A stretch of 44,873 nt of DNA, from positions 1-44,873 of the IMG/VR virus record IMGVR_UViG_3300045741_000267, one strand, 5' to 3'. Positions 429-43,590 of the stretch are shown piece by piece (within the stretch, counting starts at the first letter, position 1; each line of letters begins with the position of its first letter). The stretch comes from a virus. The notes beneath the pieces were generated by a model. It was not told the DNA's origin. It made no database searches and saw nothing but the letters and a program-made list of their open reading frames with translations. The position numbers and the translations under genes are program-made.

Positions 429-474
429 CATGCATTCGACTCGCATGGTAAAATCCATTATTGATAGAGCATAG
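425..474 (+). promoter_or_regulatory. sigma70-type promoter and ATAGAG leader box
   Basis: TTGACA at 425-430 and TAAAAT at 449-454 are separated by 18 bp, with TGG immediately before the -10. A leader box ATAGAGCATAG lies at 464-474, just before the next start codon. The -35 overlaps the helicase stop codon. Confidence 0.75.
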
Positions 475-2232: not shown

Positions 2233-2589
2233 ATGAAAGAAGATTTAGCAGCGCGGTTGTGGCGGGGATTTTGGATTCTGGGTGTTTACATTCGTTTCAC
2301 GTGGAACGCAAACTCCCGTGATGTGCCGTTTAAATACTCCCGCTATAAGACCAGCCGTGAGACTTCCCATTGGTTCTGGCGGTTTAATTGGGAGACGTTC
2401 AAAATGAGTAAAGAACCGTGTAAAAAGTGTGGTGGGTCTGGCGACTACGGTCTAGGCCAGACTTTCGGCGAGTGTTGGGATTGCGATGGGTCGGGGGAAG
2501 AAAATCTTAAGCGTTGGCTGATCGTGGCCGGTGCTGTAGTTGTTTTGGCCGTGATCGTCGGCATTATAGATATCGTGGTGGGTGCATGA
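2233..2589 (+). CDS. DnaJ-type zinc-finger membrane protein, unknown role
   Basis: This is 118 residues with AGAGAGGG before ATG 2233. The N-terminal ~55 residues are rich in Trp and Phe. Residues 63-87 hold two CxxCxGxG-like motifs (CKKCGGSG and CWDCDGSG), as in the DnaJ central zinc-binding domain. A hydrophobic segment (LIVAGAVVVLAVIVGIIDIV) ends the protein and should anchor it in the membrane. The stop overlaps the next start (ATGA), so it is translationally coupled to the UvrD-like helicase. No J-domain is present, so it is not a full co-chaperone. Confidence 0.7.
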   Translation: MKEDLAARLWRGFWILGVYIRFTWNANSRDVPFKYSRYKTSRETSHWFWRFNWETFKMSKEPCKKCGGSGDYGLGQTFGECWDCDGSGEENLKRWLIVAGAVVVLAVIVGIIDIVVGA

Positions 2590-4013
2590 AAGCTTGCGCC
2601 ATTTACGGTCCCCCGGGGTGTGGTAAGACTACTGAAATGCTTCGCCGCGTGGCTGAGGCTGGTACCCGTGTCAACCCAAGTGAGATCTGTTTTCTCTCAT
2701 TCACCAAGGCTGGGGCAGCTGAAGCGCTGAAGCGTCTGAACATCTCCCGGTCAGATAAGATTTGCACCATCCACTCGTTAATGTTCCGGTTAAATGGTAT
2801 GACCAGTGCCGGTGTGGTAGATTCCGCCAAGTTACGTAAGTTCGGGGATAAGGCCGGTTTCCGGTTTCGTGGCCAATCGAACGACACCGGTGAGCAAATG
2901 GAGATTGGTGACCAGTATCTAGCTATCCTGTCCCGGGCTGTGAACCGAATGGTTGATCTGTGGGATGAGTACCATGAATCAGATCGCCCCGGCGATTGGG
3001 AAGGCTTCCGGTTCTTCTGCGAGTCGTACAACGCATGGAAGCAGTCGAACGGCTATTGTGATTTTAACGACATGTTGTCCTTTTATGTGAAGAGCCGCCA
3101 TAACAGCCACACCCCCAAGATGAGTGTCGTGTTCGTGGACGAGGCCCAAGATCTGTCCAATCTACAATGGGAAGCTATCCGCACCTTGATCACCCAGTCG
3201 GGTGCGTCAGAAATCCACATTGCCGGGGATGACGATCAGGCTATTTACGAGTGGTCCGGAGCCAGTACCCACGGCATGTTAGCGTTTGAGGAAGAATTCA
3301 ATGCTATCCGCACAGTGCTGACCCAATCTTGGCGTGTACCTATTGCGGTTCACGGTATGGCCATGAAGGTGGTTCAGCGAATCGGCTCCCGGGTCGAGAA
3401 GATTTACTCACCGAAACCTGAACCCGGTTTAGTTGTGCGGTCATCCTACTTTAACCCGAAAAACATCGCCCCGGGCCGAGATACTCTGGTTCTGTGCCGT
3501 AACTACATCACTCGGAAAGAGATCGAGGATGAGCTGATTCGTCACCGAATCCCGTATGTTAACGAGGGGGGTCTCCCGGGCCTCTTCGGCACTCGACTGG
3601 CCGATGGGATACGGGCATTCAATAAGATGCAGCGAGGCGAACCCGTGTCCCCCAGTGAGCTAGAAAAAATAGCTTTGGTAGCCAACGAGAGAACCAAGCA
3701 CGAAGTTCAAACCCGGAATTTTAAACCGATGTTGGAGCGCGGGTTTATGCGATCGCTGGTGATCCCACCTCAGTTGGTGGATTTTTATCGCGACGCTGAT
3801 CTGACCGGTGAGCCACACATCCGGCTATCAACCATCCATTCGGCCAAGGGGCGCGAAGCTGATCATGTGATCATTCACCCGGGGCTGACCCAAAAAACGC
3901 TGGTGGACATGGAGAATAACCCGGACAGTGAAGCCCGTGTATGGTACGTGGCAGTGACCCGGGCCAAACACACCCTAGAGATACTTGAAGGAGATAACGC
4001 ATATGGCTTATGA
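2586..4013 (+). CDS. UvrD/Rep-family (superfamily 1A) DNA helicase
   Basis: This is 475 residues from ATG 2586, which overlaps the previous stop. The upstream in-frame ATG at 2514 would only add residues unlike any helicase. Walker A GPPGCGKTT is at residues 8-16, followed by motif Ia (LSFTKAGAAEAL). Motif II is VVFVDEAQDL, motif III is GDDDQAIYEWSGA, motif V is STIHSAKGREADHV and motif VI is VWYVAVTRAKHTL. This set defines a 3'-5' UvrD/PcrA or Dda-like helicase that unwinds replication or recombination intermediates. It is shorter than bacterial UvrD (about 700 residues), consistent with reduced 1B/2B subdomains. It is coupled to the neighbours on both sides. Confidence 0.92.
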   Translation: MKACAIYGPPGCGKTTEMLRRVAEAGTRVNPSEICFLSFTKAGAAEALKRLNISRSDKICTIHSLMFRLNGMTSAGVVDSAKLRKFGDKAGFRFRGQSNDTGEQMEIGDQYLAILSRAVNRMVDLWDEYHESDRPGDWEGFRFFCESYNAWKQSNGYCDFNDMLSFYVKSRHNSHTPKMSVVFVDEAQDLSNLQWEAIRTLITQSGASEIHIAGDDDQAIYEWSGASTHGMLAFEEEFNAIRTVLTQSWRVPIAVHGMAMKVVQRIGSRVEKIYSPKPEPGLVVRSSYFNPKNIAPGRDTLVLCRNYITRKEIEDELIRHRIPYVNEGGLPGLFGTRLADGIRAFNKMQRGEPVSPSELEKIALVANERTKHEVQTRNFKPMLERGFMRSLVIPPQLVDFYRDADLTGEPHIRLSTIHSAKGREADHVIIHPGLTQKTLVDMENNPDSEARVWYVAVTRAKHTLEILEGDNAYGL

Positions 4014-5115: not shown

Positions 5116-5306
5116 TGGATGTGAAACCGCGAGCATGGATGCGCAGGTGGGCGTATGACGGTGAAACCCCACAAAAGGTGAGGGATGTGGATGGGCATAT
5201 GAAATGGCCGGGTAAGTTCAAGTTAAAGCCGATCACGATTGTTAAGTGTCTCCCTGATGATGTCCCCCTATATGTGATCAAAGAAGCCGTGGACGGGGGT
5301 GAGTGA
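5115..5306 (+). CDS. hypothetical protein
   Basis: This is 63 residues in a TAATG overlap with the previous gene and directly abutting the polymerase start. It is basic with several Trp (WMRRWAYDG, MKWPGKFKLKP). I do not recognise it. The tight packing on both sides supports it being real. Confidence 0.55.
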   Translation: MDVKPRAWMRRWAYDGETPQKVRDVDGHMKWPGKFKLKPITIVKCLPDDVPLYVIKEAVDGGE

Positions 5307-7135
5307 TGGAAGTCCCCCGTTTAAGTGAATTCCCGGTTATCGCAATCGACACCGAAACCACCGGTCTGCATTGGTGGAAAGATAAGGTGTTCGGGATATC
5401 GGTGTCGACCCCCGGAGGGCAGGACTGGTATTGGGATATCCGGGAGGAACCCCGCGCGGTTGAGTTCCTCCGTGACGAGATCCCTAAATGCCAATGGGTG
5501 GTCGCTCATAATGCCAAGTTTGACTGGCACATGTTGCGATGTCTTGGGATCAACCTGCCCCGGGATCGCACCGATGACACCATGATCCGAGCAGCGATTA
5601 TCGACGAACACTTGTTATCGTACGATCTAGGCAGTCTGGGGCACAAATACGTCGGTGCTGGTAAAGATGAGGATATCTGGCAGGAGCTGGCCGACATCTT
5701 CGGGGGCAAACCCACCAAACACGCTCAGGTCGGCAACCTGCCCAGAGCACCGAGACATATCGTTGCCCGCTATGCCAAGATGGATACCCGAGTCACTCTG
5801 ATGCTCTGGCAGCACCAGAACACCCTGATCGAAGAGCAGAATCTGCAAGCCGTTTGCGATCTGGAACGTCGCTTGCTTCCGGTGATCGTTGATATGGAGT
5901 TGGGTGGGGTTAAAGTCAACACCGAGATGGCTGAACAAGCCGTGGTTAAGATCAGCTCCCAAGCTAGTACCGCCCAATATCAGTTGGACAGCCTCGCTGG
6001 ATTTGCGGTCAACCCTAATCCGTCCGGTTCAATCAAGAAGCTGTTCGAGCCCAAACAAGACAAGGCTGGTAATTGGGTTCTGAATGACGGCACCGTGGCT
6101 GGGACCACTGAGGCCGGTGGAGTAAGTATCGATGCTTCTGTGTTGCGCCGAATGAAGCACCCGGCAGCCTCAGTCATTCTGAAGTTGCGAAAGTTGCTGA
6201 AGACCCGGGATACATTCTTAAAGGGCCACATTCTAGGTCACCACCATAACGGGGTGATCCATGCTAACTACAACCAAACCAAGTCGGACAACGACTTAGG
6301 GACCGGCACTGGGCGGCTGTCGGTTAACGACCCCGCGCTACAACAGATTCATAAGCGCGACACCGAGATTGCCAGTGTGGTCCGGGCTATGTTCCTACCG
6401 GATTCATTGGGGCATGACTGGGTTTGTAACGATTGGGCTCAAATGGACTTTCGCGTGTTTGCCCACTACGTTAACGACCCGGCGATCATCGCCATGTATC
6501 GTAAAGACCCTGACACTGATTTCCATCAGGTGACGTCGGACCTGACCGGCCTGCCGCGCTCACCACGGTTCGCCGGTGACGCCAACGCTAAGCAGATCAA
6601 TCTTGGGTTGGTGTTTGGCATGGGCCAGGGGAAATTGGCACAGGAAATGGGATTACCATTCACCGTCGAACCGAACACCCGTACTGGGGGCACATGGAAC
6701 AAACCGGGGGCAGAAGCGTTGGAAGTGTTCAATAAATACCACTCATCGATCCCGGGTGTGCAGGAACTGTTACGGAATGCATCATCGGTGGCCAAGTCCC
6801 GTGGCTATGTCCGGACCATCATCGGAAGACGTATCCGGTTCCCCAAGGGGCAGTTCACCCACAAGGCCGGGGGTTTAATATTCCAGGGTTCGGCGGCAGA
6901 CGCCTTGAAGGTTAAGATCATCGAGGTACATGATTACTTATCGTCTCTCAACGACGGGAGTCGGTTGGTGCTTAATGTACACGATGAATTCGATACTTCT
7001 ATACTTAAAGGGAACAAACTGGTAAGGGATGAGATATCCCGGATCGTGACTGACTTCAGTGGTCCGATTAAGTTCAGGGTACCGATTCGAACAGATCAGG
7101 GGGTGGCGGATAACTGGTGGGATGCATGTAAGTAG
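5306..7135 (+). CDS. dpoZ: family A DNA polymerase with 3'-5' exonuclease, candidate Z-genome polymerase
   Basis: This is 609 residues from ATG 5306. Residues 1-180 form the exonuclease: D15-T-E17 (Exo I), AHNAKFDWHML (Exo II) and YAKMDTRV (Exo III). The polymerase palm has motif A D376-W-A-Q-M-D-F-R383, motif B around K429-Q-I-N-L-G-L-V-F-G438, and motif C H559-D-E561. Compared with E. coli Pol I (DYSQIELR; KAINFGLIYG), the steric-gate Glu is Asp, the O-helix Phe762 position is Leu433 and the Tyr766 position is Phe437. No 5' nuclease domain is present. Being in the same early region as PurZ, MazZ and DatZ genes suggests the DpoZ type that tolerates or prefers dZTP. The family is certain; the Z preference is inferred. 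Confidence 0.93.
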   Translation: MEVPRLSEFPVIAIDTETTGLHWWKDKVFGISVSTPGGQDWYWDIREEPRAVEFLRDEIPKCQWVVAHNAKFDWHMLRCLGINLPRDRTDDTMIRAAIIDEHLLSYDLGSLGHKYVGAGKDEDIWQELADIFGGKPTKHAQVGNLPRAPRHIVARYAKMDTRVTLMLWQHQNTLIEEQNLQAVCDLERRLLPVIVDMELGGVKVNTEMAEQAVVKISSQASTAQYQLDSLAGFAVNPNPSGSIKKLFEPKQDKAGNWVLNDGTVAGTTEAGGVSIDASVLRRMKHPAASVILKLRKLLKTRDTFLKGHILGHHHNGVIHANYNQTKSDNDLGTGTGRLSVNDPALQQIHKRDTEIASVVRAMFLPDSLGHDWVCNDWAQMDFRVFAHYVNDPAIIAMYRKDPDTDFHQVTSDLTGLPRSPRFAGDANAKQINLGLVFGMGQGKLAQEMGLPFTVEPNTRTGGTWNKPGAEALEVFNKYHSSIPGVQELLRNASSVAKSRGYVRTIIGRRIRFPKGQFTHKAGGLIFQGSAADALKVKIIEVHDYLSSLNDGSRLVLNVHDEFDTSILKGNKLVRDEISRIVTDFSGPIKFRVPIRTDQGVADNWWDACK

Positions 7136-7200
7136 TTGACAGTGGTCGTTGTTCCGTGGTAGAATAACGACTGATTTACTTTTATCAATAGAGAATAGAG
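7136..7200 (+). promoter_or_regulatory. strong sigma70-type promoter with leader box for the Z-cassette operon
   Basis: TTGACA (7136-7141) and TAGAAT (7160-7165) with an 18-bp spacer ending in TGG, then the leader box ATAGAGAATAGAG at 7188-7200. It begins right after the polymerase stop and is the only clear promoter before the PurZ-MazZ-DatZ genes. Confidence 0.8.
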
Positions 7201-7207
7201 AGACACC

Positions 7208-7309
7208 GTGACCAAAATCCAAATTGCTTGCTCACTGTATTTAATGATCGGCTTAAGCTTCGGTTATTTGCTTGGCGCTGCCGACATGTTAATGGGGGCG
7301 CTGAAATGA
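7208..7309 (+). CDS. 33-residue membrane peptide
   Basis: A very short gene starting with GTG 7208, eight bases after the leader box, with GAGAG as ribosome site. The peptide begins MTKIQIACSLYLMIGLSFGY and is almost entirely one hydrophobic helix with no charged residues in the centre. Its stop overlaps the next ATG (ATGA at 7306-7309), which strongly supports translation. It could insert in the host membrane; its role is unknown. Confidence 0.6.
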   Translation: MTKIQIACSLYLMIGLSFGYLLGAADMLMGALK

Positions 7310-8576: not shown

Positions 8577-8804
8577 GTGACTATACACTACCCGGTTGGG
8601 TTGGAAAACCGGTATAATACCACCCGCATTATTGATTCTAAGGGGCAGTTAATCGCTCGCACCGAAATGGGCGCTGCAGCGGCTGTTGAAATCCGGGACG
8701 CACTGAACCACTGGGGCAATGTCAAGAAAGCCCGGGCTGCGCAAATTGAGGCCACCCACCGTATCAACAAGTTTGAAATTAACCCAAGGAGAGAAACACC
8801 ATGA
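8577..8804 (+). CDS. hypothetical protein
   Basis: This is 75 residues from GTG 8577, chosen because GGAGAA (8565-8570) is well placed and the previous gene ends at 8574. GTG 8556 and 8562 are alternatives. It is a short alpha/beta protein with an Ala- and Lys-rich helix. The end overlaps the PurZ start (ATGA), so it is coupled to it. Confidence 0.55.
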   Translation: MTIHYPVGLENRYNTTRIIDSKGQLIARTEMGAAAAVEIRDALNHWGNVKKARAAQIEATHRINKFEINPRRETP

Positions 8805-9946
8805 GCAAGCCAACACGTAAAGTAAGTTTAATCATCGACCTGCAGTTTGGATCCACCGGTAAGGGGGCATTGGCTGGTTATCTGGCCACCCGGGACAAGC
8901 CCGACACCGTAGTTACCGCTTGGGCGGCAAACGCTGGTCACACATTCATCGACGGTAATGACCGGAAGTATGTTCACACCATGCTGGCCAACGGGGTCGT
9001 GTCCACCGGCTTGAAGCAAGTCCTGATTGGCCCCGGTTCTATCATCGACCCTGATAATCTCCTAAAAGAGATCAAACAATGTGCCGACAAGCTGGTGGGG
9101 GTGGATATTGTGGTTCACCAAAATGCTGCCGTGATCACCGACATTCACCGGGATGAGGAAGCAGCTCAAGGTGGATCCATGACCAAGATCGGGTCTACCA
9201 AAAAGGGCTGCGGGGCTGCTGCCATCCAGCGGATTCGTCGTGAACCGAAGTATAACAACACTGCCAAAGAAGAGCTGTTGGGGGTCGGCCACCCGGTGAT
9301 GCGCTTCATCCGTGTGGCCACACCAGCCGAGTACAATGCCTGTTTGGATAAGGCCGAAAACATTCTAGTTGAGGGTGCACAGGGTCACTCGTTATCGATG
9401 TACCATGGTTTCTACCCCTATTGCACTTCCCGCGATGTGTCCACTGCCCAGATCCTTGCCGATTGTGGAATCCCACCGTTCGGATTCGCCGATATTAAGG
9501 TAATCGGGACAGCACGCACGTACCCTATTCGTGTGGCCAACCGTTTCAACGAGGCGGGTGATCAGGTGGGTTGGTCCGGGCCGTGTTACCCGGACCAAGA
9601 GGAAACGTCTTTCGAGGCCATCGGTCAACAGGTCGAATTGACCACCGTGACCAAGCTCCCGCGTCGGATCTTCACATTCTCTCTGATGCAGATCAAAGAG
9701 GCTGTTCGTCAGAATGGTGTTGATGAGATCTTCTTGAACTTCGTTAATTACTGTTCGCCAATCGATGCCTACGCTATCGTTCAACAGATCACCGAGGTGT
9801 GCAAGGTCAGCTACTTAGGTTACGGGCCTGGAATTGAAGATATGGTTGAGACGAATAGTAGCATTCAACCACCGTTGGACTTCGGGGTTGAAGACCGTAA
9901 GATAATCGGGTATGACCTAGCTAAGGACGACCATGCCGACATTTAA
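8801..9946 (+). CDS. purZ: PurZ: succinoaminodeoxyadenylate synthetase (PurA paralogue)
   Basis: This is 381 residues after a strong AAGGAG. It belongs to the adenylosuccinate synthetase family: the P-loop-like FGSTGKGA at 16-23, NAGHT at 44-48 (His47 equals PurA His41), GSTKKGCGAA and VEGAQG. PurA has GDEGKGK, with Asp as general base; here the Asp is Ser18. Replacement by a small residue makes room for the 2-amino group of dGMP and is the hallmark of phage PurZ. Expected reaction: dGMP + aspartate + ATP (or dATP) to N6-succino-2-amino-dAMP, then host PurB gives dZMP. It is shorter than bacterial PurA (about 430). MazZ and DatZ genes follow, overlapping or adjacent. Family is certain; PurZ specificity rests on Ser18 and context. 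Confidence 0.93.
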   Translation: MSKPTRKVSLIIDLQFGSTGKGALAGYLATRDKPDTVVTAWAANAGHTFIDGNDRKYVHTMLANGVVSTGLKQVLIGPGSIIDPDNLLKEIKQCADKLVGVDIVVHQNAAVITDIHRDEEAAQGGSMTKIGSTKKGCGAAAIQRIRREPKYNNTAKEELLGVGHPVMRFIRVATPAEYNACLDKAENILVEGAQGHSLSMYHGFYPYCTSRDVSTAQILADCGIPPFGFADIKVIGTARTYPIRVANRFNEAGDQVGWSGPCYPDQEETSFEAIGQQVELTTVTKLPRRIFTFSLMQIKEAVRQNGVDEIFLNFVNYCSPIDAYAIVQQITEVCKVSYLGYGPGIEDMVETNSSIQPPLDFGVEDRKIIGYDLAKDDHADI

Positions 9947-10439
9947 ATCCGACAGTATCCGAGGATTAACCACCGAGATCACTGGGTGGGCTAATGAAAC
10001 GTTCCCTGACCGTACCCCGGCTTCGGCTCTTTTGAAGCTGTTCGGTGAGATTGGGGAGCTGATCGAGTCCCCGCGCTCACCGGGGGAGTACGCGGACATC
10101 TGTATTTTGCTGTTCGACTTAGCTAATATGCACGGGATCGATCTTGGGCAGGCCATTTGGGATAAAATGCAGATTAACAAAGGCCGCACATGGTCGTTAT
10201 CCGAGTCCGGCACCTATCGACATATCGAGGGCGAATGTCAGCAAGTGGAAGAGTATGCAGATCCCGACTCAGTGGCCACCTTGACCCTGCCGTACAATCT
10301 CGGGTATGAGGATGCCAAGGATGGGTTAAGCCCTAGATCCGTGCTCACTCTGTCCGGGGCTGATGTCCCAACCACAATGGACAACACGCGCAACTATCTA
10401 GCTGGTTACAATTCTTTCCCCGGGGGTGAGCATGGCTAA
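9933..10439 (+). CDS. mazZ: MazZ: MazG-like (d)GTP pyrophosphohydrolase with C-terminal extension
   Basis: This is 168 residues, overlapping PurZ by 14 bases with AAGGAC upstream. Residues 1-90 are an all-alpha NTP pyrophosphatase module: E39-I-G-E42 and E52-Y-A-D55 give the metal-binding ExxE and ExxD pairs. In Z phages the enzyme turns dGTP/GTP into (d)GMP, the PurZ substrate. Residues about 92-168 are an extension not needed by the MazG fold, with LGYEDAKDGL and LAGYN motifs reminiscent of short phage GYxDG-type proteins. The specific dGTP activity is inferred from its place between PurZ and DatZ. Confidence 0.85.
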   Translation: MPTFKSDSIRGLTTEITGWANETFPDRTPASALLKLFGEIGELIESPRSPGEYADICILLFDLANMHGIDLGQAIWDKMQINKGRTWSLSESGTYRHIEGECQQVEEYADPDSVATLTLPYNLGYEDAKDGLSPRSVLTLSGADVPTTMDNTRNYLAGYNSFPGGEHG

Positions 10440-10980
10440 CTCATTAACGCTATCCCAAAAGCTCCGAGCATCCCACGTGAAGCGGTGGCAAATTGTGAAC
10501 GTGTCCCGTCAGCAAACGATCGCTGAACACATGTTCAACGTGAACCTGATCGCTATGGAAATCGGGCGCAGAATGGGCATTAACCGCGCTGGGATGGAGT
10601 ACATTAGTCGGTGGGCGTTAATTCACGATATCCCCGAGGTGGTGACCGGTGACATTGCCACTCCAACCAAGCAAGCAATGCGGGCAGCGGTCCCGGATTC
10701 GGACCCAATCCATCACGTGGAATTGAGCCTAGATGATGAGTATAAGGAGTTGTACTTGACCATGAAAAAAGATATGCCGGTGGAACTGGATGTGGTTAAG
10801 TTGGCGGACATGATCGATGCTGCTGTGTTCCTGCTGGATCACGGTATTGGAAGGCACGCGGAGCAGGTCCGGCTCACGATTGTCCACGATATGCGTAAAA
10901 AGGTCACCGACTGCGCCAAAAAATACACGGGTGCTAATTGGTCCGTGGTAACAGACATTTACAACAAATTAGTGGGTTAA
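10432..10980 (+). CDS. datZ: DatZ: HD-domain dATP triphosphohydrolase
   Basis: This is 182 residues from ATG 10432 (GGGGGTGAG just upstream). With this start the residues R18, W19 and H33 fall at the same numbers as in E. coli YfbR, followed by H65-D66, E69, D74 and the second-half D126 in KLADMIDA: the complete HD metal set. In Z-genome phages this family removes dATP (to deoxyadenosine and triphosphate) so adenine is not built into DNA. It overlaps MazZ by 8 bases. A generic 5'-nucleotidase is the alternative, made less likely by context. Confidence 0.87.
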   Translation: MANSLTLSQKLRASHVKRWQIVNVSRQQTIAEHMFNVNLIAMEIGRRMGINRAGMEYISRWALIHDIPEVVTGDIATPTKQAMRAAVPDSDPIHHVELSLDDEYKELYLTMKKDMPVELDVVKLADMIDAAVFLLDHGIGRHAEQVRLTIVHDMRKKVTDCAKKYTGANWSVVTDIYNKLVG

Positions 10981-12187: not shown

Positions 12188-12386
12188 GTTGCACCTCCAT
12201 TGCGAAAGCAACGGCATCATTCACCGAGTCGGCCATTGACTCACAATTGCTTGGATATTCAATGGGATCGCCGTGCGGGTCAAACAACTCAACACAACCC
12301 CCGGAATTCTCGATGGATAATAGAATCTGCCAACCACCCGGCAAGTGCTCTGCCGCATTATCGATCGCTTCCTCAAAGGCACCCAT
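12180..12386 (-). CDS. small hypothetical protein
   Basis: This is 68 residues, ATG at 12386, overlapping the stop of the preceding leftward gene. It is acidic with helical ends (FEEAIDNAAEHL, SVNDAVAFAMEV). Unknown family; support comes from the overlaps and the AAGGCGG upstream. Confidence 0.55.
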   Translation of the reverse strand: MGAFEEAIDNAAEHLPGGWQILLSIENSGGCVELFDPHGDPIEYPSNCESMADSVNDAVAFAMEVQHD

Positions 12387-12877
12387 CACACACCGCCTTT
12401 TTTAGGGAACTTAACTTCAGACAGCTTACGAATGCGGTTTCCGAGGGTCATTCGTTGCATTCCGGGGTTGAGATGGCTATATCTGGCCGTTAGAGCCTCG
12501 ACAGACTCACCTAAGTTGAAAGCGGCCACTTTATAAACGTAGCCCAATTCCATGCCACGCAAGAGAGACGCGATTTTATCGCCGCAATCCAGCGTTTGCC
12601 GACCGGATGAGGTCGTAAACCCGGGGGCGGCGATGTAGTTACTGATATTTGCAACGGATTTACCAATTTTCCAGATCCGTGGACCTTTAGGGGTGACTTC
12701 TTCATCTGGCGTTTGTTCGATATTTGCCACCACCGGGGTGAGAGAGCCGTTACGGACTCGTCTCTTGGTCCCCATGACCTTAATTAGGGTCCAGCCGCCA
12801 TTCACTAAGACTGATTCACAAGGGTGGTCTACACCTGTTGCCGGGTCACGGTAAGTGTGGGTTACTTTAATTGTCAT
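12386..12877 (-). CDS. hypothetical protein, first gene of leftward operon
   Basis: This is 163 residues from ATG at 12877. It begins with a beta-rich 45 residues (VTHTYRDPATGVDHP, VNGGWTLIKVMG) and continues with a helical, basic second half with KIGKSVANISNYIAAPGF and ESVEALTARYSHLNPGMQR, which could be a helix-turn-helix but is not a clear match. The leader box lies seven bases upstream. Confidence 0.6.
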   Translation of the reverse strand: MTIKVTHTYRDPATGVDHPCESVLVNGGWTLIKVMGTKRRVRNGSLTPVVANIEQTPDEEVTPKGPRIWKIGKSVANISNYIAAPGFTTSSGRQTLDCGDKIASLLRGMELGYVYKVAAFNLGESVEALTARYSHLNPGMQRMTLGNRIRKLSEVKFPKKGGV

Positions 12878-12883
12878 GATGCC

Positions 12884-12956
12884 CTCTATTCTCTATTGGT
12901 ACGGTTGGTAAAACTCACTAGACCTCTATTTTACCACAAGCAATTCAAATCAACAA
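12884..12956 (-). promoter_or_regulatory. leftward promoter with ATAGAG leader box
   Basis: Read leftward: TTGTTG (12956-12951), 17 bp ending in TGG, TAAAAT (12933-12928), then ATAGAGAATAGAG (12896-12884) seven bases before the ATG at 12877. Confidence 0.7.
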
Positions 12957-12999
12957 TATATCTCTCCCAGAATGTGACAGTCCGGCACTACAGCAATAT

Positions 13000-13283
13000 C
13001 TGTACGGTTGTACAGTCCCTCCCTAAAGTGGATGTACAGGTCACCGTACAGACGAAAACCGCGAACGACGGGACGGAATAGGGGGTCAGCCCGGGTTGTA
13101 CAGTTGTTCAACTCGCGCGCGAAAAGATATTGACCGGTATCGATCAAAATCCGCCGTACAACCGTACAACCGTACAACACCCTCAAAAACCCCGTCCTTG
13201 AGCCAAGGAGCTTGTACAGTCGTTGTACAGTCAATACCATATGACCGTACAGAATTAATTCAGAATCGATCCAAAACTGGCCA
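13000..13283. repeat. non-coding element A: GTAC-centred repeats, duplicated at 41.7 kb
   Basis: No gene is present between 12878 and 13427. At least 11 GTAC-centred sites occur, e.g. TTGTACAGT at 13008, 13096, 13212 and 13223, CCGTACAG at 13044 and 13245, and three perfect tandem copies of CCGTACAA at 13154-13177. Landmarks ACTCGCG (13111), the end of the tandem (13177), CTTGAGCCA (13197), TTGTACAGT (13212, 13223) and CCGTACAG (13245) recur in the same order at 41783, 41849, 41869, 41884, 41895 and 41917 with identical spacing. ACTGGCCA (13276) is also shared. This is a selected element: a replication origin with iterons or an operator cluster are the main options. Confidence 0.85.
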
Positions 13284-13350: not shown

Positions 13351-13404
13351 TTTCAATTGCAGCCATGCAATGGTAAAATAGAGTGGCAATTGCAAGCGTG
13401 CAAT
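13351..13404 (+). promoter_or_regulatory. late-operon promoter flanked by two palindromic operators
   Basis: -10 TAAAAT at 13374-13379 with TGG before it; the -35 TTTCAA (13351-13356) is poor. Palindromes ATTGCA-N4-TGCAAT lie at 13356-13371 and 13389-13404, exactly 33 bp apart (about three turns). One covers the spacer, the other the start of the transcript. A weak -35 plus paired dyads suggests control by a dimeric regulator. Confidence 0.7.
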
Positions 13405-40390: not shown

Positions 40391-40708
40391 CTAAAACCTG
40401 AAAAAGCCAGGTTCAACACCTAAGTAACCACCAATAGCGTTGGGGCGGTTCAATAATCCGGTAAGATCAATGCAGCCAACCCAACGACCCCGAGATTCGA
40501 TGTAAACCACTACATAATTAGCGGACTTCGGAACTGGTTGGGAACTGTTGGGAACACCAACACGGGTGAAGTAGTTGGCCATATTCCGGGCAGCTTTAGC
40601 GGTGGCCTTTTCAGCTGCCGCCTCCGTGGCGTAGTTCTTGAATGAAATTTTAGCATTCCCATGACATTGTAGTTCGATCTGGGTTATGCAATGTTTAATA
40701 ATGTTCAT
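40391..40708 (-). CDS. hypothetical protein
   Basis: This is 105 residues from ATG at 40708; the ATAGAG leader box (40717-40729) lies nine bases upstream. It carries a helical Ala-rich stretch (YATEAAAEKATAKAARNM) then a beta part with RGRWVGCIDLTGLLN. No family recognised. Confidence 0.55.
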   Translation of the reverse strand: MNIIKHCITQIELQCHGNAKISFKNYATEAAAEKATAKAARNMANYFTRVGVPNSSQPVPKSANYVVVYIESRGRWVGCIDLTGLLNRPNAIGGYLGVEPGFFRF

Positions 40709-40716
40709 GGTGTTCC

Positions 40717-40729
40717 CTCTATCCTCTAT
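40717..40729 (-). promoter_or_regulatory. ATAGAG leader box
   Basis: Read leftward ATAGAGGATAGAG, nine bases before the ATG at 40708 and touching the 3' end of the preceding gene. AGAGGA within it can act as a ribosome site. No promoter is evident in the 20-base gap. Confidence 0.55.
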
Positions 40730-40995
40730 TAAGCAAAAGCCAGCTCATAATGGGTGACCCCAGATATTGTGCGGGTCGCAAGCAACTTGACACGTTTCAT
40801 CAAACTTAATTGATGTTTAGCAGCTTCCAAAGAGATACCAACCCCGGTCAGAGGTTGTGGTAATGCCACGATACGTGAAATGGGGAAGGAATCAGTCCAG
40901 ATGGCAAGTACGCACTGCAAAACAACTTGACTGTCGCTGGACCAAGCTGCGGTTTTACGATAGGTCTCGATCATTTGTTCGGCTTGATTACGCAT
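40729..40995 (-). CDS. possible winged-helix regulator
   Basis: This is 88 residues with the leader box nine bases before ATG at 40995. The final 40 residues (ISLEAAKHQLSLMKRVKLLATRTISGVTHYELAF) fit a winged helix: helix, recognition helix, then a two-stranded wing. The first 45 residues are helical. It could bind DNA, perhaps the GTAC sites or the late operator. Based on pattern only. Confidence 0.45.
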   Translation of the reverse strand: MRNQAEQMIETYRKTAAWSSDSQVVLQCVLAIWTDSFPISRIVALPQPLTGVGISLEAAKHQLSLMKRVKLLATRTISGVTHYELAFA

Positions 40996-41003
40996 GGTAT
41001 TCT

Positions 41004-41073
41004 CTCTATTCTCTATGTTGGGTGTTTGTCAAAACCACACCTCTATTATACAGCAAAATGTTTGTAAACACAA
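41004..41073 (-). promoter_or_regulatory. leftward promoter with ATAGAG leader box
   Basis: Read leftward: TTGTGT (41073-41068), 17 bp, TATAAT (41050-41045), then ATAGAGAATAGAG (41016-41004). The -35 is the same as that of the primase promoter at 41962. Confidence 0.72.
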
Positions 41074-41088: not shown

Positions 41089-41535
41089 TCACAATTTAAC
41101 AAACTCGATCAGCCCGTCCAACCCACCCCCGCCAACATGACCTGACCTGCAGATCCACTTACCGGGTCCGGGCCAGAAGTCGATAAACCCCCTTGGACCA
41201 GTGACGATTAAGTGCGCGCCCCCATTCTTAACCTCGAACTGAACTCCGGCTTTTCTCAACAACTCAGGGGACTCATGTCGTCGGACAGCTTTAACATCCG
41301 TCGGGTCTTTAGGTACCAGACCGGACCATGACGATCTTTTTAGTTCTACAGCCATGTCCACCTGAACACTGTCGATGTCAGGTAGGGGGCAGCTACTTGG
41401 AATAGGCCCGCACACGGCGATGCCATTTCGAACCTCAGACGTTATCACAACACCGGTGGTTCTACATGAAAATGGGCGTTGACCTAAGACCGAATTCGGG
41501 CAGTCACCACAAGACTTAATTACCATACACTTCAT
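41089..41535 (-). CDS. small zinc protein with phage-common C-terminal domain
   Basis: This is 148 residues. ATG at 41535 is chosen because it follows a leader box with AGGA, while the longer frame to 41676 would start upstream of the promoter -10. Residues 1-55 hold C-GDC, C and a later CGPIPSSCPLPD, probably a zinc site. The second half (LRKAGVQFEVKNGGAHLIV, GFIDFWPGPGKW) matches a short domain shared by many phage early proteins of unknown function. It is the first gene of its leftward transcript. Confidence 0.6.
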   Translation of the reverse strand: MKCMVIKSCGDCPNSVLGQRPFSCRTTGVVITSEVRNGIAVCGPIPSSCPLPDIDSVQVDMAVELKRSSWSGLVPKDPTDVKAVRRHESPELLRKAGVQFEVKNGGAHLIVTGPRGFIDFWPGPGKWICRSGHVGGGGLDGLIEFVKL

Positions 41536-41537
41536 TG

Positions 41538-41577
41538 CTCTATCCTCTATAAGTAAGGGACTCCATTTAGAGTCCCT
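41538..41577 (-). promoter_or_regulatory. leader box and stable hairpin in 5' leader
   Basis: Read leftward: AGGGACTC (41577-41570), 6-base loop, GAGTCCCT (41563-41556), a perfect 8-pair stem, then ATAGAGGATAGAG (41550-41538) three bases before the ATG. The leader from the promoter at 41667 is about 125 bases, long for a phage early gene. Confidence 0.6.
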
Positions 41578-41666
41578 CAGGGTTGGTTGGGCCGCGATCT
41601 GTTCACATACAATGCCCTTTATGGTAAGTTGGGTGGGTGTCAACGTGTCGGTAAACCTGAACCCGT

Positions 41667-41695: not shown

Positions 41696-41703
41696 CTGAT
41701 CGG

Positions 41704-41942
41704 TTGTACAGTCATGGTCGTTGAGGTGGTGTACTACCCAGAGCCCTCAAGGACGGGTCTGAGGTAGGGTGTACAATTCACACTCGCGTACGAGGTGATT
41801 GTTACCTCAATATCAATCAGACCCGGTGAACGATTGTACAACTGTACAACACCCGGTAGGGGGCCGTTCTTGAGCCATCCTCATTGTACAGTCGTTGTAC
41901 AGTCAACCCCCGCTGACCGTACAGTTCAGTAAAAACTGGCCA
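41704..41942. repeat. non-coding element B: second copy of the GTAC repeat element
   Basis: No gene lies between 41536 and 42024. GTAC-centred sites occur at 41704, 41730, 41770, 41834 and 41842 (tandem TTGTACAA-CTGTACAA), 41884, 41895 and 41917, with ACTCGCG at 41783, CTTGAGCCA at 41869 and ACTGGCCA at 41935. Order and distances match element A at 13.1 kb; only ACTGGCCA is shifted by 13 bases. The tandem has two 8-mers here and three in A, in the same total window. The primase promoter starts 20 bases after the element. Confidence 0.85.
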
Positions 41943-41961: not shown

Positions 41962-42009
41962 TTGTGTTTCTGCCTTCGTGGTGTTATAATAACCACTATA
42001 GAGAATATA
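41962..42009 (+). promoter_or_regulatory. primase operon promoter and leader box
   Basis: TTGTGT (41962-41967), 17 bp, TATAAT (41985-41990), then ATAGAGAATATA (41998-42009) and AGAGG (42015-42019) before GTG 42025. Confidence 0.75.
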
Positions 42010-42024
42010 TAACCAGAGGTGAAT

Positions 42025-43590
42025 GTGGATAACAACCAGTTAAAGAGATTTTCCGCCCTGTTTAAGGGCAACACCCGATCATATGGGCAATTGTTCCCTA
42101 ATAAACCTAAGTCCAAGGCGATGCTAACTGTCAAGGAGCCCTACGACGACGGTGTGATTGGCGACCACCTATCCGGGTTGGTGGGTTTAGGTATTGCCCC
42201 TATCCGGGACGACGGGATGGCATACTGGGGGGCCATTGATATTGATAATCACGGCAGCACTGAAGATTTAGACTTGATTTCCATTGAAAACAAGATCAAG
42301 TTGATGTCACTCCCCTTGATCACGTGTCGATCTAAGTCCGGGGGCGCTCACCTGTACTTGTTTGGCCGGGAACCTCTCCGCGCCGATATGCTCAAAACAG
42401 TCCTTACCAAGTGGATGAATGACCTGAAGCTGGAAGGGTCCGATTGCGTGTTCCCCAAGCAGACCCGGTTACCGTTGGATTCCAATGGCGATAAAGCCTT
42501 AGGGAACTGGATCAACCTACCCTACTTCGGGGGTGACGACACTGACCGTTACGCGATAGATTCTGGTGAGAGGTGTTCATTCGATCTGTTCCTCACCAAC
42601 GCCGAAACGACAGCCATTACTCAGGAGCAGCTGGAGGGGTTGTTCGGCTCAGAGCATTCCGAGGCACCTCCGTGCATAAGGAAAGCCTTACGAGAGGGCA
42701 TCGGTGAGGGTTCTCGCAATGATACCCTGTTCCACATCACCATTTACAATCGAAAACGGAACCCCGAGGGTGCACGGGAGATGTCCCATTCCATGCAACC
42801 GGAACTGTTCACCAATCCGCTAAGCTTCTCTGAGGCAGATAAGGTGATCAAATCCGCTGCCCGGAAGAGTTATGGATATTTATGTAAAAAAGACCCATGG
42901 ATGGGGTGGTGCGATAAAGAGGCCTGCCGGAAGGTGAAGTACGGCATTAGTGAATCTGAATATGAAACCCTGTTGGCTGACACCAAGCTGCCCCTGTTTA
43001 GTGATCTGGTCAAGTACATGAACACCGAACCAGTGATGTGGGAAGTAAAGATGAATGGGGTACCTATAACCCTGTCCACCGAAGAGTTGATGGATTATCG
43101 GGTGGTCCGAGTCCGGGCCATGGAGAAACTACATACAGTATTGCCATCTAAGATTAAAGCAGGCCAGTGGACCGATGAGATACTGGCCAACCTAATGCAC
43201 TCTTTGGTTATCGAAGAGGCACCGTTAGAGTCCTCACCTATGGGTGTACTGAATCTCAGGCTGGAAGAGTTCCTGCGCAAGTCCGACCTATCTTCCGAGG
43301 GTATTGATCCACGAGATCGGGAATGCCTGTTGCGCGGTATGCCAGTGGTCCAGATGCACAAGGGCGATAAAGTGGTAATGTTCAGGTCGATCGATTATGA
43401 GGACTATCTAAAACGGACCCGGACCGAAGTTCCTCGTAGCAAAAATCTATGGCATCGTTGTAACCGGGAAATGGGAGTGTGTTTTGATCGAGTGCGGGTT
43501 AAACAGCAGTTAGTATCCATTTGGTACGTCGATTTTAAGAAAATCAGTGAAGTTAAACACGAAGCAGTCGACTTTAATCCGGAGTTCTAA
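42025..43590 (+). CDS. archaeo-eukaryotic-type primase (TOTE/primase-polymerase-like)
   Basis: This is 521 residues from GTG 42025, AGAGG five bases upstream; GTG 42019 overlaps that site. AEP motif I is AID72-I-D74 (YWGAIDIDNH), motif II is S103-K-S-G-G-A-H109 and basic residues around FPKQTRLPL follow, as in TOTE-system and phage primase-polymerases. Residues 180-320 include a Cys cluster (CKKDPWMGWCDKEACRKVKYG), probably a PriCT/zinc segment. The last 200 residues are helical and not recognised. It would prime synthesis for the family A polymerase; direct polymerase activity is possible. Confidence 0.82.
   Translation: MDNNQLKRFSALFKGNTRSYGQLFPNKPKSKAMLTVKEPYDDGVIGDHLSGLVGLGIAPIRDDGMAYWGAIDIDNHGSTEDLDLISIENKIKLMSLPLITCRSKSGGAHLYLFGREPLRADMLKTVLTKWMNDLKLEGSDCVFPKQTRLPLDSNGDKALGNWINLPYFGGDDTDRYAIDSGERCSFDLFLTNAETTAITQEQLEGLFGSEHSEAPPCIRKALREGIGEGSRNDTLFHITIYNRKRNPEGAREMSHSMQPELFTNPLSFSEADKVIKSAARKSYGYLCKKDPWMGWCDKEACRKVKYGISESEYETLLADTKLPLFSDLVKYMNTEPVMWEVKMNGVPITLSTEELMDYRVVRVRAMEKLHTVLPSKIKAGQWTDEILANLMHSLVIEEAPLESSPMGVLNLRLEEFLRKSDLSSEGIDPRDRECLLRGMPVVQMHKGDKVVMFRSIDYEDYLKRTRTEVPRSKNLWHRCNREMGVCFDRVRVKQQLVSIWYVDFKKISEVKHEAVDFNPEF

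Follow-up and report, generated by a model that had tools for sequence, protein, structure and literature searches.

An ATAGAG direct repeat before the start codons of non-virion genes in a probable Z-genome phage and its relatives: a candidate mRNA leader element

Results and Discussion

The Phage Contig and Its Box Copies

The window analysed here, a stretch of 44,873 nucleotides (positions 1 to 44,873 of IMG/VR record IMGVR_UViG_3300045741_000267), is a circularly permuted tailed-phage contig. It carries PurZ, MazZ-like and DatZ genes (8801–10980) together with a gene for a polA-type polymerase (5306–7135). Because of this gene content the phage probably possesses a 2-aminoadenine (Z) genome. 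A host search among genome contigs returned only two MAG contigs as matches, and the window gave no match when scanned for Rfam families and tRNAs. TGTACA-type palindromic repeats (TTGTACAG...) are abundant in two intergenic regions (12985–13240 and 41700–41920), which flank the early modules and have an operator- or origin-like look.

The element under study, termed the box, is a 13-letter direct repeat, ATAGAG-N-ATAGAG, with the consensus ATAGAGNATAGAG (AUAGAGGAUAGAG in its RNA form). When up to two mismatches were allowed, this consensus matched the window 14 times, compared to a mean of 1.48 and a maximum of 4 in shuffled sequences. A sequence-only reading of the window had listed nine boxes. 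All nine were recovered by motif matching, and all are in gene orientation with an ATG or GTG about 2–15 nt downstream. Five of them are exact copies, three contain one mismatch and one contains two. The other five two-mismatch matches are located within the virion-gene block, away from starts, and look like background.

On the plus strand, the one-mismatch box ATAGAGCATAGTG (464–476) precedes gene 486–803 and follows the −10 element of a sigma70-like promoter (425–454; TTGACA at 425–430, TAAAAT at 449–454) by approximately 9 nt. The one-mismatch box ATAGAGCATAGAT (840–852) stands before gene 868–1350, which has a separate Shine-Dalgarno sequence AAGGA, and directly 5′ of this box lies a terminator-like hairpin (810–833, folding z −2.9). 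Similarly, a hairpin CCCCGG-TTCG-CCGGGG (2183–2198) is found 5′ of the one-mismatch box ATAGAGCAGAGAG (2213–2225) before gene 2233–2589. The exact copy ATAGAGAATAGAG at 7188–7200 is located 7 nt before the GTG at 7208, downstream of a sigma70-like promoter (7136–7165; TTGACA, TAGAAT). The two-mismatch box ATAGAGAATATAT (41998–42010) lies at the predicted 5′ end of the mRNA of the primase gene (42025–43590). This gene has a separate Shine-Dalgarno sequence, AGAGGTG, and a sigma70-like promoter (41962–41990; TTGTGT, TATAAT) with an inverted repeat around the −10 element.

All four boxes on the minus strand are exact copies. The form ATAGAGAATAGAG occurs at 12884–12896 before gene 12386–12877, where it is also kept before the homologues, and at 41004–41016 before gene 40729–40995, downstream of a TATAAT promoter. 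The form ATAGAGGATAGAG at 40717–40729 is operon-internal, shares bases with the stop codon of the gene before it and precedes gene 40391–40708. A second copy of this form (41538–41550) is located 2 nt before the ATG at 41535 of gene 41089–41535, and an 11-bp hairpin (41553–41578, z −5.9) ends 3 nt before it. Thus, to the boxes at 840, 2213 and 40717, previously described as not following good promoters, the one at 41538 has to be added, which likewise has no close promoter and follows a hairpin. A half-copy had been noted at 13378. The letters are present, but instead of a full box they make up AAAATAGAG, which resembles a −10 element and lies 5′ of the gene for the small terminase. The resemblance of CACTATAGAGAA at 41994 to a T7-like promoter was rejected as an explanation, since it is absent at the other boxes.

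Conservation of the Box in Related Phages

Polymerase-based searches yielded 80 viral contigs with polymerases 45–71% identical to that of the window. Full records were read for 23 relatives (24 with the window), and nine cultured Z-phages were compared. Genes were called using a simple purpose-written caller. The motif search in relatives, which had been proposed as a check, revealed that the box recurs in start-proximal position across the 24 records, where box counts are not independent because the records are related to each other. A same-strand called start was found 0–25 nt downstream of 44 of 48 exact boxes and of 24 of 31 boxes with one mismatch. Some boxes without a called start reflect missed gene calls, for example 41538 in the window. 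The start codon was ATG for 67 of the 68 start-associated boxes.

The orientation is strict. Near starts, sense and antisense boxes occur at a ratio of 67:1, and ATAGAG in 60-nt leaders at a ratio of 213:10. Three records (G010–G012) contain 11–12 boxes each, every one in the coding direction, with no occurrence of the reversed control pattern. Furthermore, an ATAGAG-like 8-mer tops the ranking of start-associated words in most of the 24 records, and the box persists over a range of 35–67% G+C.

The start motif divides into ATAGAGNATAGAG, ATAGAGGAC and GAGATNAGAG forms that follow the clades of the polymerase tree. The ATAGAGNATAG form occurs in the neighbourhoods of the window and of G010 and also in L239/L248, the ATAGAGGAC form in one clade of 33 rows, and the GAGATNAGAG form mainly among cultured phages of Acinetobacter, Klebsiella, Salmonella and Providencia. 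Five cultured phages contain 34 copies of GAGATNAGAG, 33 of which have an ATG within 12 nt. The arrangement (A/G)GAG, three nucleotides, AGAG is common to both box forms. None of these start motifs was detected in four outgroup phages (Stenotrophomonas, Vibrio, Alteromonas).

Genes Preceded by the Box

The box had been described as absent from structural genes, and this was confirmed. In the window it precedes none of the 13 virion genes with their own leader, compared to 7 of 15 other leader genes (Fisher 0.007). The corresponding values for relative G011 are 0 of 7 and 12 of 16 (Fisher 0.001), which amounts to 0 of 20 virion genes in the two genomes covered by this test. Box-bearing genes are mostly the first in their transcript, and translationally coupled genes have plain Shine-Dalgarno sites. 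The conserved box families include 474–803, 868–1350, 12386–12877, helicase and primase. Promoterless operon-internal boxes are also conserved, for example before the homologues of gene 868. Judged from function and position, from which the term early is derived, the box genes would be replication and early genes. Conservation differs between gene families: the box is present in 13 of 19 leaders of family 474–803 and in 0 of 22 leaders of family 1415–2173 (p 1.5e-6). Gene 1415–2173 belongs to family PF23977 (Pam3 gp34-like), which is present in 24 of 24 records.

Relation of the Box to the Ribosome-Binding Site

The distance from box to start codon is short and tight (mean 5.6, SD 4.3). The median gap is 2 nt when the linker N is G and 7 nt otherwise (p 9e-6). 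Thus, the linker sets the spacing to the AUG, and the box overlaps the Shine-Dalgarno region. The shift is as expected if GAGG of the first half or GAG of the second half acts as the Shine-Dalgarno sequence. The box might therefore merely be the ribosome-binding site favoured in this lineage, a Shine-Dalgarno sequence plus A/G-rich spacer with no function past ribosome pairing. Purine-rich leaders are common, and related phages possess other start motifs such as GAGATNAGAG. Nevertheless, we regard this explanation as unlikely. Pairing with the anti-Shine-Dalgarno sequence is slightly worse at box sites than at other leader sites (median −5.8 versus −6.4 kcal/mol, p 0.04), and values of −6 kcal/mol or below are reached by 31% of box sites versus 59% of the others. 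The invariant A/T letters remain unpaired with 16S rRNA. In leaders with a separate Shine-Dalgarno sequence (primase, gene 868 and others) the whole box stands upstream of it, and its first ~10 letters are largely kept, so ribosome register alone does not define the box. The position profile of the box was built from similarity-selected sequences, and its absolute information content is inflated. Moreover, the conserved family with its own leader but without a box argues, by its gene-specific pattern, against a mere favoured ribosome-binding site.

Promoters and Hairpins Upstream of the Box

Promoter-like sequences precede 55 of 79 boxes (70%) compared to 11% of random positions, and in 20 of these 55 promoter-borne cases the predicted +1 is no more than 11 nt away from the first base of the box. 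Transcription starts, like start codons and early timing, are predictions throughout. Inverted repeats (e.g., GTGGTGTTATAATAACCAC) bracket the −10 element of several box promoters (window 41980–41997; 14591 in G011; 5186 and 37156 in G012; these two are the records of L183 and L184).

This proximity to transcript starts is also what a DNA-level transcription element would produce, be it an operator, a stoperator-like roadblock or a signal in the initially transcribed region. Asymmetric DNA sites with one orientation do exist, namely the stoperators of L5 (PMC3203893). Such a role is nevertheless quite improbable for the box. Its distance from the −10 element varies between 7 and 39 nt (SD 8.3), whereas its place depends on the start codon and its register on the Shine-Dalgarno sequence. 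Promoterless copies are kept before orthologues, and hairpins fold between +1 and the box. The related proposal that the box is the initiating region of a second kind of promoter is not supported in view of the variable −10 distance, the usual presence of sigma70-like hexamers and the several promoterless boxes. A fixed distance to the transcription start, separate from any sigma70-like promoter, was not found.

The longer spacers between +1 and the box showed a clear folding signal, with 25 of 35 folding better than 90% of shuffles (3.5 expected). A hairpin test in 40-nt windows gave a partial signal (mean z −1.5 versus −0.5 for controls), which became clear by restriction to the +1-to-box region. 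Whether the 5′ end is flush or the spacer folded, the box would be the first part of the mRNA left unpaired in most promoter-borne leaders. Boxes without a close promoter often stand behind a terminator-like hairpin (840, 41538 and several in relatives). The hairpins are not universal, being absent in G003 and several other records.

Comparable leaders were observed in a second phage group (G030, L084, L138), in the order hairpin-CAAC-(A)GAAAGGATAGAG-ATG. PurZ and polymerase were not found in these fragments. The stems show covariation: in a small set of six, picked for forming equal-size hairpins, substitutions affect both partners in 7 of 9 pairs, and the covariation score was reached by 0 of 500 shuffles. 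In DSL-LC04 (L298), a cultured relative of this group, inspection by eye showed another start motif, ACATACAGGAGAAA, after small hairpins.

Finally, a RegB-like RNA-processing site creating new 5′ ends before early genes would suit the Shine-Dalgarno location at early-type genes, as for RegB sites in T4, and the promoterless copies standing after hairpins, but it is very improbable, as no nuclease candidate was identified and ATAGAG is not avoided sense-specifically in coding regions (0.76 sense, 0.64 antisense), which counts against a cleavage or strong-occlusion site.

Search for a Recognizing Factor

Analysis of gene co-occurrence revealed no phage protein family that combines conservation with restriction to box-bearing phages. 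The core families 474–803, helicase (2586–4013) and primase are present in box-bearing phages and in L014–L018 but not in L019–L022, a distribution that may simply follow phylogeny. The best-correlated small uncharacterized protein, that of the 474–803 family, has a predicted SAVED/CARF-like fold, which is not that of an obvious RNA binder.

The product of gene 486–803 is a small Pam3 gp32-like protein (PF23992) encoded by the first gene after the helicase, and its homologues are kept in nearly all box-bearing Z-phages. Its AlphaFold model (pLDDT 97) matched mostly SAVED/CARF domains in the PDB (Cap5, Cad1, ring nucleases) with Z scores up to 8.2. According to this model, a cyclic-nucleotide binder or counter-defence protein is possible.

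DUF3310, which has been suggested for the start-associated sequence (SAS) of mycobacteriophages (PMC11373665), was also searched for and gave no match; the positive control gave no match either. A phage antisense RNA containing the complementary box was rejected. In single-direction genomes such as G010–G012, every box with at most one mismatch lies in the coding strand, and sense transcripts would therefore contain no full complement.

Proposed Function

Position, orientation, conservation, gene specificity and hairpin excess of the box are established here by sequence comparison. From the strict orientation, the promoterless copies, the overlap with the ribosome-binding site and the order hairpin-box-AUG we infer action as RNA rather than DNA. 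The box is probably an element of the mRNA 5′ leader which controls translation initiation and/or mRNA lifetime of a set of non-virion genes. In the proposed arrangement a sigma70-type promoter would be followed by a flush 5′ end or small 5′ hairpin, AUAGAG-N-AUAGAG and AUG, with the box placed on or beside the ribosome-binding site. The genes concerned are non-virion genes and mostly head a transcript. Either the ribosome or an RNA-binding factor of phage or host origin would dock on the purine-rich stretch, and this docking would set translation initiation and/or mRNA lifetime jointly for the gene set. Stabilization of the mRNA by a 5′ polypurine stretch or stem-loop fits the leader layout, by analogy, and a regulator of translation acting in trans agrees with the gene-set pattern.

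The suggestion of the sequence-only reading that the box is a site of translational control or of an RNA-binding protein is thus supported in kind by sense orientation, ribosome-binding-site overlap, promoterless internal copies, hairpin-box-AUG leaders and gene-specific conservation; the search for the binding factor itself was unsuccessful. More tentatively, a dedicated RNA-binding factor might read AUAGAG-N-AUAGAG and its clade variants and act as a switch on how the entire early set is translated or degraded. This would constitute an RNA regulon spanning the lineage of Z-genome phages, and the second group has a similar leader of hairpin plus box.

Comparison with Known Systems

A limited search of the open-access literature found no paper in which ATAGAG-N-ATAGAG or GAGATNAGAG is described as a start motif of phages. 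Several known systems are comparable. In T4, the signals on which RegA and RegB act likewise lie at ribosome-binding sites of early genes (PMC3014915). Their sequence is unrelated to the box, and no RegA or RegB counterpart was identified here. T4-type phages also contain PeSL cassettes, units of early promoter and stem-loop strewn between early genes. In contrast to these, the conserved part here is the box at the ribosome-binding site and not the promoter.

A 5′ polypurine stretch or 5′ stem-loop can stabilize mRNA, as described for katG and for Bacillus cases cited there (PMC2358910). Such STAB-SD or polypurine stabilizers share with the box a stretch rich in purines at or close to the 5′ end (from predicted transcription starts) and ribosome-binding site, often with a 5′-terminal stem-loop. 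However, they belong to single genes and have strong 16S complementarity, whereas the box tags a gene set and pairs weakly.

The closest parallel in kind is SAS/ESAS of cluster K mycobacteriophages, which is start-associated and functionally unexplained (PMC3203893; PMC11373665; PMC12699233). Both SAS and the box are 13-nt asymmetric repeats in one orientation a few nucleotides upstream of ATG, restricted to non-structural genes and conserved beyond Shine-Dalgarno pairing, and some copies of both stand behind a promoter with inverted repeats. The inverted repeats around the −10 element of box promoters recall ESAS promoters. In contrast, the SAS consensus GGGATAGGAGCCC is not matched by the direct repeat of the box, and SAS occurs in temperate actinophages, the box in Z-genome phages. 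The inverted repeats of SAS have been read as DNA sites, whereas the spacers between +1 and the box often fold as small hairpins. Judged by sequence and phage lineage, the box is therefore of the same kind as SAS but of another family. SAS has been known since 2011 in one mycobacteriophage cluster, without a function. The same kind of element, with another sequence, now appears in a large environmental lineage including cultured Acinetobacter, Klebsiella, Salmonella and Providencia phages, which makes it testable in easy hosts. One RNA signal would let a virus control a whole gene set, and, by this comparison, phages may control early gene sets at the RNA level more often than the T4 examples imply.
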